NCBI RefSeq assembly: GCF_007860105.1
Contig: NZ_SJPU01000002.1
Span: 1,911,739 to 1,975,738 of the forward strand
Direction: 5' to 3'
Length of the DNA: 64,000 nt
From: Allorhodopirellula heiligendammensis
Lineage (GTDB): Bacteria; Planctomycetota; Planctomycetia; Pirellulales; Pirellulaceae
Shown one piece after another: positions 3,323 to 63,440 of this stretch. A program made the position numbers and the translations under genes. Numbering within the stretch: the stretch's first letter is position 1; every line of letters begins with the position of its first letter. The notes under the pieces were generated by a model that was not told the origin of the DNA, made no database searches, and saw only the letters and a list, made by a program, of their open reading frames with translations.

Positions 3323-4447
3323 ATGAGCGATTCCTCCCGAAAACGACAGCACCAAGCATCTTCGACGCGGGGTGAGCTTGCGCCGACACGTCCGCGCTGG
3401 CCCGCGATGCTAGGGTCGCTGCTGGCACATGTGATTGTGCTCCTCGGCCTGTTGTGGCTGCTCGCTACCGGGTTGAGCACGGGCACGAACTCTCCACCGG
3501 TCGTACGCAGTGTGGGTTTGGCGATCGCCCACCGGATGCCCGACCACACTCGCTACGTCAGTGAACCGGTGCCGCATACCGGGGCCGCCACAGCCCCGGA
3601 GTCTGCCAGCCCGGCGGCACCAGACCCATTGGCTGACGAGACGGCCCGGTCGGATGGTGGGCGTCAGTCCGCTGCGTCCTCGATGAAATCGCTCGATATC
3701 AAATCGCCCGTCGACTTCGCAGCGGTGTTAGCGGAGATGAATGGCGGTGGCACGTCCACGACTGGGACGAGTACCTCGACTGCCTCATCGGACTCTCTCG
3801 TGCAGGGCAGAATCCGCTTGGCCGACGGACGCTCACCTGAGGAACTGGGTGACCGCGAATTGGTGCCTGGCGTGACACGCGCCGGGCAGGGAGCCGGGCA
3901 AACCACGACGGAGGTGTTCGGTGTCTCCGGCAGCGGCAGCACTTTTGTTTATGTTTTCGACCGGAGCGATAGCATGAGCGCGGCGGGGGCTGCGCCGCTG
4001 CGGGCGGCGAAAACGGAATTGATTCGCAGCCTCGAAACACTTACCGAGCGGCAACAGTTCCAGATCATTTTCTATAACGATGAACCCGATGTTTTCCACA
4101 GCGAAGGTGACGCCACTGGATTGGTGACTGGCTCGCCAGCGACTATTGCGAGAGCGAAAGATTATGTTCGACGAACGGTTGCGACAGGCGGTACCGAGCA
4201 CGAACGTGCGCTAAGGCTAGCGCTGCGGCTGGCGCCAGACGTCATCTTCTTTTTGACCGACGCGAAGATCCAAACGATGTCGCCAGCTCAGCTTGACGAC
4301 ATTTCGCGACGCGCGCAGGGTGCGGGAACAACAATTCATGCGATCCAGTTCGGTACTGGGCCGCCGCCGACGCGCACATTCTTAGAACAACTCGTCCGCC
4401 GCGGCGGAGGGGGCTACCGTTACGTCGATGTAACTCAGCTGAAATAG
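3323..4447 (+). CDS. von Willebrand factor A domain membrane protein
   Basis: The 374-residue protein has one N-terminal transmembrane helix (about residues 28-50), a Ser/Pro/Ala-rich linker to about residue 195, and a C-terminal VWA domain. The metal-ion-dependent adhesion site is visible: DRSDS (DxSxS) at about residue 213, a GGT near 280 and FFLTDA near 310. The ATG at 3323 is preferred to an in-frame TTG at 3308. VWA domains bind ligands or partner proteins through a divalent metal. The type-II-like topology suggests the domain sits in the periplasm. The gene is divergent from the DUF1501 gene and stands alone; its ligand cannot be told from sequence. Confidence 0.85.
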   Translation: MSDSSRKRQHQASSTRGELAPTRPRWPAMLGSLLAHVIVLLGLLWLLATGLSTGTNSPPVVRSVGLAIAHRMPDHTRYVSEPVPHTGAATAPESASPAAPDPLADETARSDGGRQSAASSMKSLDIKSPVDFAAVLAEMNGGGTSTTGTSTSTASSDSLVQGRIRLADGRSPEELGDRELVPGVTRAGQGAGQTTTEVFGVSGSGSTFVYVFDRSDSMSAAGAAPLRAAKTELIRSLETLTERQQFQIIFYNDEPDVFHSEGDATGLVTGSPATIARAKDYVRRTVATGGTEHERALRLALRLAPDVIFFLTDAKIQTMSPAQLDDISRRAQGAGTTIHAIQFGTGPPPTRTFLEQLVRRGGGGYRYVDVTQLK

Positions 4448-38405: not shown

Positions 38406-38988
38406 GTCGCCAGACGGCAGCGTTTTTTACTGGCTGAGCCAGATGTCGCACAGGCATCCGCTCGCCTCTTGAGGAACCAACGTTCTAGAAAGGTTGGTGC
38501 TGGTGGGGCTGGGAGCGTCCGATGTGGCTGGCACCCATTGAGCTAGTCCCCAATTCCCGTACCACCGACGGCGCGATTTAAGATGCTGCCGTGTGGATGC
38601 CCTGGTCGGGGGCTGAGAAAGGGGCCACCCATGAGTGAGAAAGGGGCCACCCATGGCTGAGAAGTGACACCGAGAAAGGGGCGAGAAAGGGGCCACCCAC
38701 ATAAAAGTGAGAAAGGGGCCACCCACAGAGCGAGAAAGGGGCCACCCATCATGAGAAAGGGGCCACCCATGAGAAAGGGGCCACCCATCATGACATGAGA
38801 AAGGGGCCACCCATAAATTGGACAGTATCCGTGCATACGGCGCGCGACCGACAGAATAAAACCAAGTGCATCGCTGGCAAAATCGGCGATTGGATGCGGA
38901 CGACGCCAGCAAAAATTGCTGACCAGCGACTGACCGCGCAGCGGTCACTGCGAAGGCTGACTTCGAAATCAAAAGAATGGGTATCGGT
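38406..38988. other. 583-bp gene-free region carrying the 18-bp repeat array
   Basis: The region between cfa and the transposase stop contains no supported gene. The open minus-strand frame across it exists only because the repeat units lack stop codons. The repeat array is listed separately. Confidence 0.6.
38611..38817. repeat. array of eight 18-bp repeats, variable spacing
   Basis: Eight copies of GAGAAAGGGGCCACCCAT (two end in C) begin at 38615, 38637, 38683, 38709, 38732, 38753, 38771 and 38797; an 11-base partial copy begins at 38672. Spacers are 4, 28 (including the partial copy), 8, 5, 3, 0 and 8 nt and several contain CAT or ATGA. Within each unit GGG and CCC can pair around GCCA, giving a mini-hairpin. 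All copies point the same way. The next gene is an HUH transposase. Very short irregular spacers rule out a CRISPR array. Confidence 0.85.
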
Positions 38989-40065
38989 TCAGACCGAAGA
39001 GAGGCCCAGCGGGTTTTCGCGGGCACACAACCAGCCTTGACCGCGACGGCACGCTTCACCCGCGAGACTCTCCGGCGTGCCTGCCGCTCGCTTGAAGATG
39101 CGACCAAACTTTCGCACCACGTCGCACCAACCGTGGGTGTCCAAGCCGATCCGCTGCAAGATCGGGGTCAGGTGATCTGGAATGCGACCGATCTTATCGG
39201 CACGCAACTGGCGGCCTGTCCAATCGAGCAATTCCAAATACCTCGCCATCGGTACCGGTAAAAATCCCTTATTGCTCGCCCGACGTCCAGATGGCTCCAC
39301 TGCGGGACCGACGTCATCGAATCGCTCATCAATCTCGATGGGACTCATCCAACCGCTACGCCGTCGACGACGACTCCGCTCCCAGTCGTGAGTGCTCGGC
39401 CGACTCCGATCTTCTCGTTCGCTAAGATCATCGATCCGATCCTTCGCTCCGGTGTAATCACTGGTCTCCGGAGTTTCCGCCAGCGCCGCACGAATCGGAT
39501 TCAGATCAACGTACGCCGCACACACGAGCAAACTGGATTCATCGAGCAAAATTTGTGCTCGATAACGACCTTCCCAAAAATGGCCGGTAACTTTTTCTTC
39601 GGCGTTGCTACGCCGAGCAATGTTTTCAGCCGTGCAGCGCATCCACCAACTGATATCTGACAATCGCGAGCGTCTTTCAGCGAGCACTTCAGGCTGATTG
39701 AGAATCATGTCCAGTTCCGGCTTGCTGGGGGCGGCGGGCGAACCATCTTCATTTCGCCGCCGAGGAAACAACCGCAACCAACGCCTCGCCACCTCCTCGT
39801 CGGACCAGGCCGCCACAACGTCCGCCCGACTGCGCAGGACAAGGTGAATGTGGTTATGCATCACCGAAAAAGTCAAGCAATCCACCGCGAAGACCGAAGC
39901 TAGGAACTCCAGTCGATCACGAATCCAACCTCGCCGGTGCTCGTAGGAATTGCCCGTCAACGGATCGTCTCCACAGAGAAACGCACGACGCACGCACCTC
40001 TGAATGCAATGCACCACCTGCACTTCGGATGGATCGAGAACTTCACCACGAGCTTGACGAGGCAT
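38989..40065 (-). CDS. REP-associated / IS200-like HUH tyrosine transposase (RAYT)
   Basis: The 358-residue protein has the Y1 transposase signature: MPRQARGE start, the HUH motif HNHIHL (H72 and H74), the GHFWEGRYRAQILLDE block (about 161-176) and AYVDLNPIRAAL, where Y185 is the likely catalytic tyrosine. HUH transposases cut one DNA strand with a covalent 5'-phosphotyrosine. The C-terminal third (about 220-358) is extra compared with IS200. No insertion-sequence terminal repeats or target duplications are seen. The repeat array lies 172 bp past the stop, which fits a transposase-repeat pair. The ATG at 40065 is preferred over 40092. Confidence 0.85.
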   Translation of the reverse strand: MPRQARGEVLDPSEVQVVHCIQRCVRRAFLCGDDPLTGNSYEHRRGWIRDRLEFLASVFAVDCLTFSVMHNHIHLVLRSRADVVAAWSDEEVARRWLRLFPRRRNEDGSPAAPSKPELDMILNQPEVLAERRSRLSDISWWMRCTAENIARRSNAEEKVTGHFWEGRYRAQILLDESSLLVCAAYVDLNPIRAALAETPETSDYTGAKDRIDDLSEREDRSRPSTHDWERSRRRRRSGWMSPIEIDERFDDVGPAVEPSGRRASNKGFLPVPMARYLELLDWTGRQLRADKIGRIPDHLTPILQRIGLDTHGWCDVVRKFGRIFKRAAGTPESLAGEACRRGQGWLCARENPLGLSSV

Positions 40066-40199
40066 CACATCGACTCCGGAGCAGAGGACCATCAGGGCCG
40101 CACAACCGGTACGACCATTGCCATCTTACGCTCTTGAGCAGGACGGTCAAGCAGAAATTGCCTGTCCCTTTCTACCCCGTGAAGAGAACCCACGCCTGG

Positions 40200-40310: not shown

Positions 40311-40886
40311 CTAATCGGTACCGGACACCTTACTTTTCTCCGACACCTTTGATCTCTCCCATTGATCGGTCTTGAGAGCATTTCCAATGCGTCTGTGGTA
40401 CCAAAAAACAACTAGGGCTGCGGCCAAAACTAGATTCGACACCGTTAGAATCGCGAGGGTCTTTATGAAACAATTTTCACCAAAGCTACGAAGGCCAACT
40501 ACACGCAAATCATAATCTTGTTTGAGCAACCCTGGTGGAACTCGCATATTGACAAGGACATCGCAGCTGTGTGGCCGATCACTTGGGTATTCACTGTGGC
40601 TTATAGTCAAGCATTGATGACCTACAACGCGAGCGTCAACGCGGATATCCTCTCCCTCGAGAATAGCAATCAATACCTTATGCCTGTATTTAAGTCGATT
40701 TGCACCGACACTCGCTTCGAAATCTGAGCCAATCACCTCGAGTTTTGCCTGTCTGTAACTATCGCGGTGGACTAAAAAGCGAACTCGCCCTATTTGCTCA
40801 TGAACGTTTAACCCAGATAGAATTATCCCCACTATTAGTAACGGAAATCGCACTCGGCCTAAAATTAAATACGTTCGCCGAAGCAT
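40311..40886 (-). CDS. small membrane protein, possible immunity protein of the RHS tip
   Basis: The 191-residue protein has an N-terminal membrane helix (about residues 11-28, FPLLIVGIILSG), a soluble middle and a C-terminal helix near 150-165 (LTVSNLVLAAALVVFWY). No family is recognised. It starts 28 bp after the RHS-tip stop on the same strand, the position normally held by an immunity gene. The extreme C-terminus is encoded by a short direct repeat (units from 40321 and 40340) and may be variable. The ATG at 40886 is used; longer forms lack a good start. Confidence 0.5.
   Translation of the reverse strand: MLRRTYLILGRVRFPLLIVGIILSGLNVHEQIGRVRFLVHRDSYRQAKLEVIGSDFEASVGANRLKYRHKVLIAILEGEDIRVDARVVGHQCLTISHSEYPSDRPHSCDVLVNMRVPPGLLKQDYDLRVVGLRSFGENCFIKTLAILTVSNLVLAAALVVFWYHRRIGNALKTDQWERSKVSEKSKVSGTD
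40321..40350. repeat. short direct repeat at the 3' end of the membrane-protein gene
   Basis: CCGGACACCTTACTTTTCT is followed by a second shorter unit CCGACACCTTT. The repeat encodes KVSEKSKVSGT on the minus strand. It is a second small repeat type beside the HUH transposase. Confidence 0.4.
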
Positions 40887-40914: not shown

Positions 40915-42048
40915 TTAGTTTGCTTCACAGCACCGACCACCACCAATTTTTTTCGCAAGTGAGCCCGAGATTGAACCGCCAACGTCGATCGAAGCGCCTA
41001 CGGTCCCCGAGAAGCCCATTCCAACGCTGCCTTCAATATCGTCTGGAAACTCGGTCTCGGTACTCACCGGAAGGTTGGCTGATCCGTGAATTCCAATGAA
41101 GATACCAGCCTGCGCTCTGACGAAAATTGTGCCGGTAATCTCGGCACCCTCAGTCGGGCAGGGACCGCTCGAATTTTCGCCTTTTACTCCACCGCCCTTA
41201 TTCGGGCCTGGGCACAGTCGTTCCTTTTCTCTGAGATAGTTCTTTCGTTTGATTTTCACCCCAGGAAAGCACGGACGATCAATTCGATCATTTCTTCCCC
41301 CGGTTCCCTTTTTTGGTGGTTTTTGAGCAGCTACAGACACACCCAATTGATAGTACACTTCCACGGACACACTTACTATTGCGTAGATCTCTTCTATCCC
41401 GTTGCTGCAGCAAGTGCTTATTTTCGCATCCGCTGCAATCTCGAAATTCACTGTCCCTGGGCCGAGTGGAACAGACCAGTTGAGTGTTCCGCCAAGCGAC
41501 ACTGAATTGAGAAGACCTTGTCCTGAAAGCAATCCCGACGGATCGACAAAACTAAGAGACATATAGTTGGAGTATAGAGCAAATCCATCCTCGTACCCGA
41601 TCGGATCTCTGGAGCAGAATCTACCAGCCACCGAGTCGTACATGCGGGCACGGTAGTGGTACAGCGTCAGGGCCTCGTCGAACTCACGACCCGTGTACGT
41701 ATACCGGTTGTTGTCAACACTGACGGTGCGTGCTGTGCCCGAAGCATCGGTGATCGTAGGCGTACCATACGCATCGTAGGCGTACCTTTCGGTGATCGCA
41801 CCACCGCCGTTGGTCAGGGCGATGACGCTGTACTGTTGGCCGCGGTGGCAGTGGGACAGGTTGCTGCTGATTGTTCTTACAGTTGGGGCGTCATTGTTAA
41901 AGTGGGTGATCGCATCGGGGCCGCAAAATCTCATGGTGCCTTGGATCCGCTTGCGAGGTGATGCATCGGGAGATCGAGTTGGATACCGCCAATGCTCGCC
42001 CGTGAGGCAATTGTACCTCTTCACCGTTCCAAAGGTGCTGCGGTGCAC
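40915..42048 (-). CDS. truncated RHS tip with C-terminal variable region
   Basis: The reading frame holds only the last part of an RHS core (about residues 66-172): QQYSVIALTNGGGAITERYA, DAYGTPTITDASGT, YTYTGREFDEALTLYHYRAR and the end motif SRDPIGYEDG to FVDPSG. A 205-residue variable C-terminus follows, Gly/Lys/Cys-rich and ending GGGRCCEAN, which I cannot assign to a toxin family. YD-repeats and any secretion signal are missing upstream, so it is a displaced RHS tip or a degraded gene. The GTG at 42048 is doubtful. Confidence 0.6.
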   Translation of the reverse strand: MHRSTFGTVKRYNCLTGEHWRYPTRSPDASPRKRIQGTMRFCGPDAITHFNNDAPTVRTISSNLSHCHRGQQYSVIALTNGGGAITERYAYDAYGTPTITDASGTARTVSVDNNRYTYTGREFDEALTLYHYRARMYDSVAGRFCSRDPIGYEDGFALYSNYMSLSFVDPSGLLSGQGLLNSVSLGGTLNWSVPLGPGTVNFEIAADAKISTCCSNGIEEIYAIVSVSVEVYYQLGVSVAAQKPPKKGTGGRNDRIDRPCFPGVKIKRKNYLREKERLCPGPNKGGGVKGENSSGPCPTEGAEITGTIFVRAQAGIFIGIHGSANLPVSTETEFPDDIEGSVGMGFSGTVGASIDVGGSISGSLAKKIGGGRCCEAN

Positions 42049-63376: not shown

Positions 63377-63440
63377 AGAGTGGGAGAGTGGGAGAGTGGG
63401 AGAGTGGGAGAGTGGGAGAGTGGGAGAGTGGGAGAGAGAG
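63377..63440. repeat. seven octamer repeats directly upstream of a start codon
   Basis: AGAGTGGG is repeated seven times (63377-63432), then AGAGAGAG. The first unit begins 4 bp upstream of the DUF1080 ATG; the array is pyrimidine-rich on the coding strand and lacks a Shine-Dalgarno. Octamer arrays of this sort change length by slippage, so expression could vary. Confidence 0.85.

Follow-up and report, generated by a model that had tools for sequence, protein, structure and literature searches.

A tandem array of 18-bp units in Allorhodopirellula heiligendammensis as the probable reiterated right end of a TIRYT-like HUH/Y1 element

A cluster of short direct repeats in the genome of Allorhodopirellula heiligendammensis is almost certainly the reiterated right end of an element of about 1.56 kb (about 38615–40173 of the window, the whole 64,000-nucleotide stretch of DNA analysed here), which encodes an HUH/Y1 transposase and is TIRYT-like in character. 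Arrays of this kind are common among related elements and occur at both ends, usually with about 7 nt of private outer flank. A wider reading, in which the end arrays form a general pattern indicative of a cut site and the TIRYT-like element with its reiterated right end is one case of it, is favoured here with somewhat less assurance.

The array and the element that carries it

The 18-mer GAGAAAGGGGCCACCCAT is matched eight times between 38615 and 38814, every time on the plus strand, against 0.03 matches expected by chance from shuffled sequence; six of the eight units are exact and two carry C in place of the final T. The initial annotation had described these near-identical units of single orientation, their irregular spacers of 0–28 nt, and the distance of 172 bp from array to stop codon, all of which are borne out; it overlooked a truncated ninth unit, GAGAAAGGGGC, which lies within the 28-nt spacer and retains the outer part only. 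Across the array junctions, the outer extent is held at 7–8 nt and the inner limit is nearly constant (10–11 nt in seven of eight), with spacers of 2–17 nt at six of the eight. The GGG-GCCA-CCC hairpin proposed for each unit can form and is weak: it folds at −2.2 kcal/mol (z −1.24), and 22 of 200 shuffles fold equally well. The features of the element are as follows.

38615..40173, minus strand: whole element, comprising left end, transposase gene, 3′ untranslated stretch, and reiterated right end (DNA similarity among copies, end motifs)
40158..40173, minus strand: left end (LE), AGAAAGGGACAGGCAA in minus-strand reading (end motif)
38989..40092, minus strand: RAYT/TIRYT-type HUH/Y1 transposase of 367 aa (HIH, WE, and YVDLNP; family matches below cutoff)
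38815..38988, minus strand: 3′ untranslated stretch, common to copies L040 and L059 as far as about 38825 (DNA similarity)
38797..38814, minus strand: innermost unit, assumed to be the parental right end (RE) (position downstream of the gene agrees with that of the RE in other copies)
38615..38796, minus strand: seven more full RE units and one truncated unit, 38672–38682 (unit matches)

The transposase carries HIH at residues 81–83, WE at 173–174, and YVDLNP at 194–199, and both HIH and YVDLNP are conserved across a 17-row protein alignment from which protein L150, which contains stops, was left out. Matches to Pfam Y1_Tnp (18.8 bits; curated cutoff 23) and NCBIfam REP_Tyr_transpos (33 bits; curated cutoff 80) fall below their cutoffs, and therefore the assignment, which agrees with the HUH Y1 transposase recognised in the initial annotation, rests on motifs and relatives. 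The predicted structure is poor (mean pLDDT 49.7), and a profile search with the transposase matched none of the solved structures at E up to 1. At least 34 matches to the protein are present in its own genome at E≤1e-10, and at least nine, the window protein included, are at ≥91% identity. Ten family-A genes, nine from the window genome and one from G006, a genome of the same genus, give a median dN/dS of 0.056 (0.036–0.155) and a median dS of 0.90 over 45 pairs; these copies are mostly old and under strong purifying selection.

DNA similarity to the other copies starts near 40173 and continues to near 38825. Twelve family-A loci were examined in the window genome (the window and L040–L050), among which L048 and L049 are 76–77% identical and L049 and L050 are without the 5′ part of the gene. 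The unit core in gene orientation, GGG[T/C]GGCCC, follows the gene within 700 nt at all 12 loci, in keeping with the partnership between repeat and transposase that had been proposed from the window; it first appears 168–191 nt past the gene in 11 of them, and L041, which has additional truncated copies between gene and motif, shows it at 522 nt. On the other side of the gene, the LE motif GGGACAGG is present at 10 of the 12 loci, lying 84–139 nt from the aligned start in other copies and 76 nt in the window copy. As a control, the RE motif was sought upstream of the gene and occurs there in L049 only, as three copies from another end array. Genome-wide, a strict RE pattern has 13 matches, namely eight in the window array, three in the L047 end array, a solo match at L057, and one near a contig start (L100), whose surroundings resemble the 3′ stretch by eye and yield no BLAST match. 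The strict LE pattern has 14 matches, with 12 at transposase copies and two (L098 and L099) showing no similarity to the element; reversed-pattern controls have none in the window genome.

L049 and L057, the latter without a transposase match, share 26 nt, ATGACTGTGCCATTCGTGGGTGGCCC, ending in the RE core. Just beyond the window array, GTGGCTGGCACC (38524–38535) equals the RE core of family F in genome G002; it has three genome copies, as has its reversed control, and possibly reflects chance.

On a REP-like reading, which takes up the RAYT–repeat partnership raised in the initial annotation, the units would belong to a repeat family on which a RAYT acts in trans; the adjoining RAYT-like protein and the possible, weak GGG-CCC stem lend it some colour. 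The 17-base core, however, occurs eight times in the 7.18-Mb genome, always within the window array; allowing one mismatch adds a single site (C3:899423), and the exact core is absent from 59 other genomes, 12 of them of the same genus. The strict RE pattern likewise places 11 of its 13 matches in two end arrays, and the stem is no better than that of many shuffles, which also applies to the ends of other families. A dispersed REP-like repeat is thus very improbable, and no dispersed palindromic REPs flank the gene, the core being at one locus and its stem weak. Absence of the unit elsewhere had been named in advance as evidence against a link with the transposase; the exact unit is indeed absent elsewhere, because each copy has its own end variant and its own outer flank, and the link itself nevertheless stands.

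Inverted ends and relation to known systems

The window RE GGGGCCAC and LE AGGGACAG are each one base off the motif GGGGWSAS, which relatives fit, G018 with GGGGACAC among them. Read from outside, the window ends are GGGACAGGCA and GGGCCACCCA, alike at 7 of 10 positions; the best inverted match in the window scores 8, which 26 of 30 shuffles also reach. Nor do the other family-A copies give an inverted-end signal beyond chance. Inversion is evident in other families: GGGGCCACCCAC is paired with GTGGGTGGCCCC in G002, GGTGCCAGCCACCTT with its complement at the other end in a second G002 family, and GGGACAGAGC with GCTCTGTCCC in G025, among others. In 35 of the 62 full-length copies the core lies within the best inverted flank match, which beats all 30 shuffles in 21 of them; among the remaining 27 copies, the inverted match does so in two. 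The putative TIRs of the window element are accordingly argued from relatives, in many of which the ends are inverted repeats. L043 and L045 also prompted the idea that the outer flank of one end repeats that of the other in inverted form; this was rejected, as inverted-flank matches show no excess (innermost ends 208 against 206.8 expected; outermost 242 against 240.2; n = 49).

The portions of PMC3733652 consulted name TIRYT and TIRtrons, give the GGGGWSAS motif as common to only some TIRs, note TIR dimers and clusters, mention REP clusters with flanking DNA, and describe R. baltica as having many tyrosine transposase genes with flanking repeats. Like these, the window element has a RAYT-like HUH/Y1 gene flanked by end motifs of GGGG-CA type, which in relatives are inverted; it differs in that its own ends deviate by one base from the motif and form no significant inverted repeat, and in that end arrays of limited outer extent are not described in those portions. 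The excerpts of PMC6006769 place TIRYT mainly in TnpA-Y1 subclass 2.1 and characterise subclass 2.3 by NHYH, WE, and YVDLNP, a median length of 325 aa, and domain insertions in the core; as far as these excerpts go, subclass 2.3 has no REP-like structures and TIRs are not mentioned for it. By its motifs, the window protein appears to resemble subclass 2.3 most, sharing WE and YVDLNP, a long protein, and several copies per genome, but it has NHIH where the described subclass motif is NHYH, and 367 aa against the median of 325.

With REPtrons and REP clusters the element shares a Y1 transposase with reiterated flanking units, but it has no dispersed palindromic family and its ends are motifs, inverted in relatives, rather than foot-tagged hairpins. 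IS200/IS605 elements also use HUH/Y1 chemistry. The likeness extends to the lack of a clear target duplication at one empty site, whereas the window protein is longer and has a Y---NP motif in place of Y---Q; no convincing end hairpins of IS200/IS605 type were found in eight end sequences (z −1.24 to 1.54 against shuffles). Within a mostly open-access literature, no further work on TIRYT or TIRtrons was found beyond PMC3733652 and PMC6006769, and the texts consulted contain no demonstration of the mode of action of Y1 transposases that have inverted ends.

Relatives at 35–41% identity are encoded on 13 plasmid or chromid records, of which seven are from Pseudoalteromonas. By eye, several (L179, L183, L184, and L185) have ends such as AGACACCCAC and GTGGGTGTCT with repeated units; Pseudoalteromonas elements being of similar design, the partnership is not specific to planctomycetes, contrary to what had been suggested. 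In P. shioyasakiensis A316 and SDCH90 the element sits between the icd and ilv genes, and Pseudoalteromonas sp. CF6-2 is without it; the insertion immediately follows the T-run of what is probably the icd terminator (TTTTTTAT^GGCTA; L183 and L187 compared with L186). No clear target duplication is seen at this one empty site, and in A316 the breakpoints are separated from the end motifs by 15 and 22 nt that are missing from the empty site, the compared sequences being just 85–89% identical and base-exact claims correspondingly unsafe. Copies of the left-end motif number two in A316 and six in SDCH90, counted by eye. Within the genus, no empty site was obtained at two other insertions: upstream of uvrB, none of 12 relatives yielded the left flank, and downstream of a cyclopropane-synthase gene, similarity did not extend past the gene. 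The plasmid records yielded no second empty site.

Among the plasmid records, 31 from Vibrio match a stretch of 34–40 bp in L184 (about 3914–3953); some of these matches lie beside cassette-like small genes, and the stretch is possibly an integron attachment site.

Arrays at the ends of related elements

The frequency of end arrays was examined in 62 full-length copies chosen from among the matches listed, so that the frequencies are valid for this sample only. Thirteen copies had no LE or RE by the patterns used and were dropped (at least L041 and L054 have an RE missed by the 480-nt limit or the pattern), leaving 49 elements with 98 ends. Each end was searched for an outward copy, at one mismatch or fewer, of its own junction 10-mer, which joins 7 nt of the private flank to 3 nt of the core. 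Such copies are present at 32 of the 98 ends, against a mean of 1.7 (maximum 7) when motifs are swapped between loci and 0.84 (maximum 4) when flanks are shuffled; inward copies are present at one end. Exact outward copies occur at 19 of the 98 ends (control mean 0.1). Both LE (19 of 49) and RE (13 of 49) are affected, as expected if the ends are equivalent. The suggestion that the locus is a spot of repeat expansion is supported. The repeated units range from a few bases (L070 and L085) up to pieces of the gene: L040 has 3′ gene pieces downstream, and in L075 a 5′ gene piece sits between two full copies, the left ends of both being preceded by TTGACGTGA.

Among the 77 junctions that 37 arrays provide, 50 share 5–9 nt on the outer side and one shares more than 12 nt, and the inner extent ranges from 0 to 93 nt. 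Where an array has two or more junctions (n = 20), the inner extent is the more variable in 17, the less variable in two, and equal in one, by hand count. Because the search motif requires part of the outer flank, it is biased towards a constant outer limit; hence, the analysis was rerun on cores alone, whereupon 31 of 50 neighbouring copies have at least 5 nt of their outer flank in common (most often 7 and never more than 12), compared with 52 of 404 pairs (12.9%) drawn from different elements of one family and end. Neighbouring cores share just 0–1 nt outward in 13 of the 50 cases, nine in family E of G025 and four in family F of G002. In the literature covered (titles and the starts of abstracts, with few subscription journals or preprints), no end arrays with limited outer extent were found.

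L087–L090 (G025) and L092–L093 (G002) are end-motif clusters sharing 0–1 nt of outer flank, unlike the other arrays.

A candidate route to end reiteration, and other features

HUH/Y1 enzymes become linked through a tyrosine to the single-stranded DNA that they nick. Most likely, the transposase would recognise the end motif, GGG[A/C]CA.. as read from outside, and it may nick about 7 nt outside that motif with the 3′ end facing outward. The free 3′ end could then anneal back into the element end, or be rejoined there, and the end would be copied again up to the nick; each round would add a copy of the end together with the same flank of about 7 nt, the inner limit of each added copy would vary, and inverted ends would let one enzyme act at both sides. 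A limited outer extent combined with a variable inner one is consistent with nicking at a fixed distance beyond the end followed by copy-back. Nicking by the transposase with a copy-back step is, on the sequence pattern, an evenly balanced proposition; taken together with TIRYT-like identity, the mechanism is judged reasonably probable. Two fuller statements are put forward tentatively: that a Y1 HUH transposase treats inverted ends alike, nicks about 7 nt outside them, and reiterates them by nick-primed copy-back, and, equally tentatively, that the reiterated end copies carry a piece of host flank and range in size from 11-nt crumbs to partial genes. Against copy-back stand the near-constant inner limit of the window array, its spacers at six of eight junctions, for which simple copy-back does not account, and the neighbouring cores (13 of 50) that share next to no outer flank.

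Passive expansion, in which a chance duplication of the end is followed by replication slippage or unequal crossing-over independently of the transposase, would suit units that are direct tandem repeats, some of whose junctions show microhomology or no filler. Plain slippage, however, does not predict a common outer limit, and the limit of 5–9 nt recurs among unrelated flanks, in 50 of 77 junctions and 27 of 50 core pairs; nor does it sit well with arrays that extend outward from the ends at 32 of 98 and inward at one of 98. Passive expansion is therefore unlikely as the whole explanation; slippage, insufficient alone for the common outer limit, may have enlarged arrays. Less likely still is serial insertion, whereby the transposase would move a short end of about 18 nt that lands repeatedly beside an existing end, leaving target DNA as spacers. 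The constant 18-nt units and odd spacers of the window array agree with such insertion, as do the clusters of families E and F without shared flank, but most arrays share the private flank of the same element, and the truncated window unit keeps the outer part alone. Serial insertion of a short end may nonetheless be the source of the window spacers and of families E and F.

Under nick-primed copy-back, the arrays would document recurrent events at the ends of elements and lead to the prediction of a cut some 7 nt beyond the GGG core, and they offer a concrete possible origin for short irregular tandem repeats in bacterial intergenic DNA. If this is true, new minisatellites would arise from end arrays, which might also mark a stage on the way from a self-moving element to REP-like clusters.

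Elsewhere in the window, GGTGTCCGGTACC (minus strand, 40317–40329) lies beside the related GGTGTCGGAGAAAAG and has six genome copies against one for the reversed control; the two may be ends of another transposase family. The reading frame at 40915–42048 (minus strand) contains a stretch that we take to resemble the RHS-repeat core, and a perfect tandem repeat of AGAGTGGG, in 7.5 copies, occupies 63377–63436.
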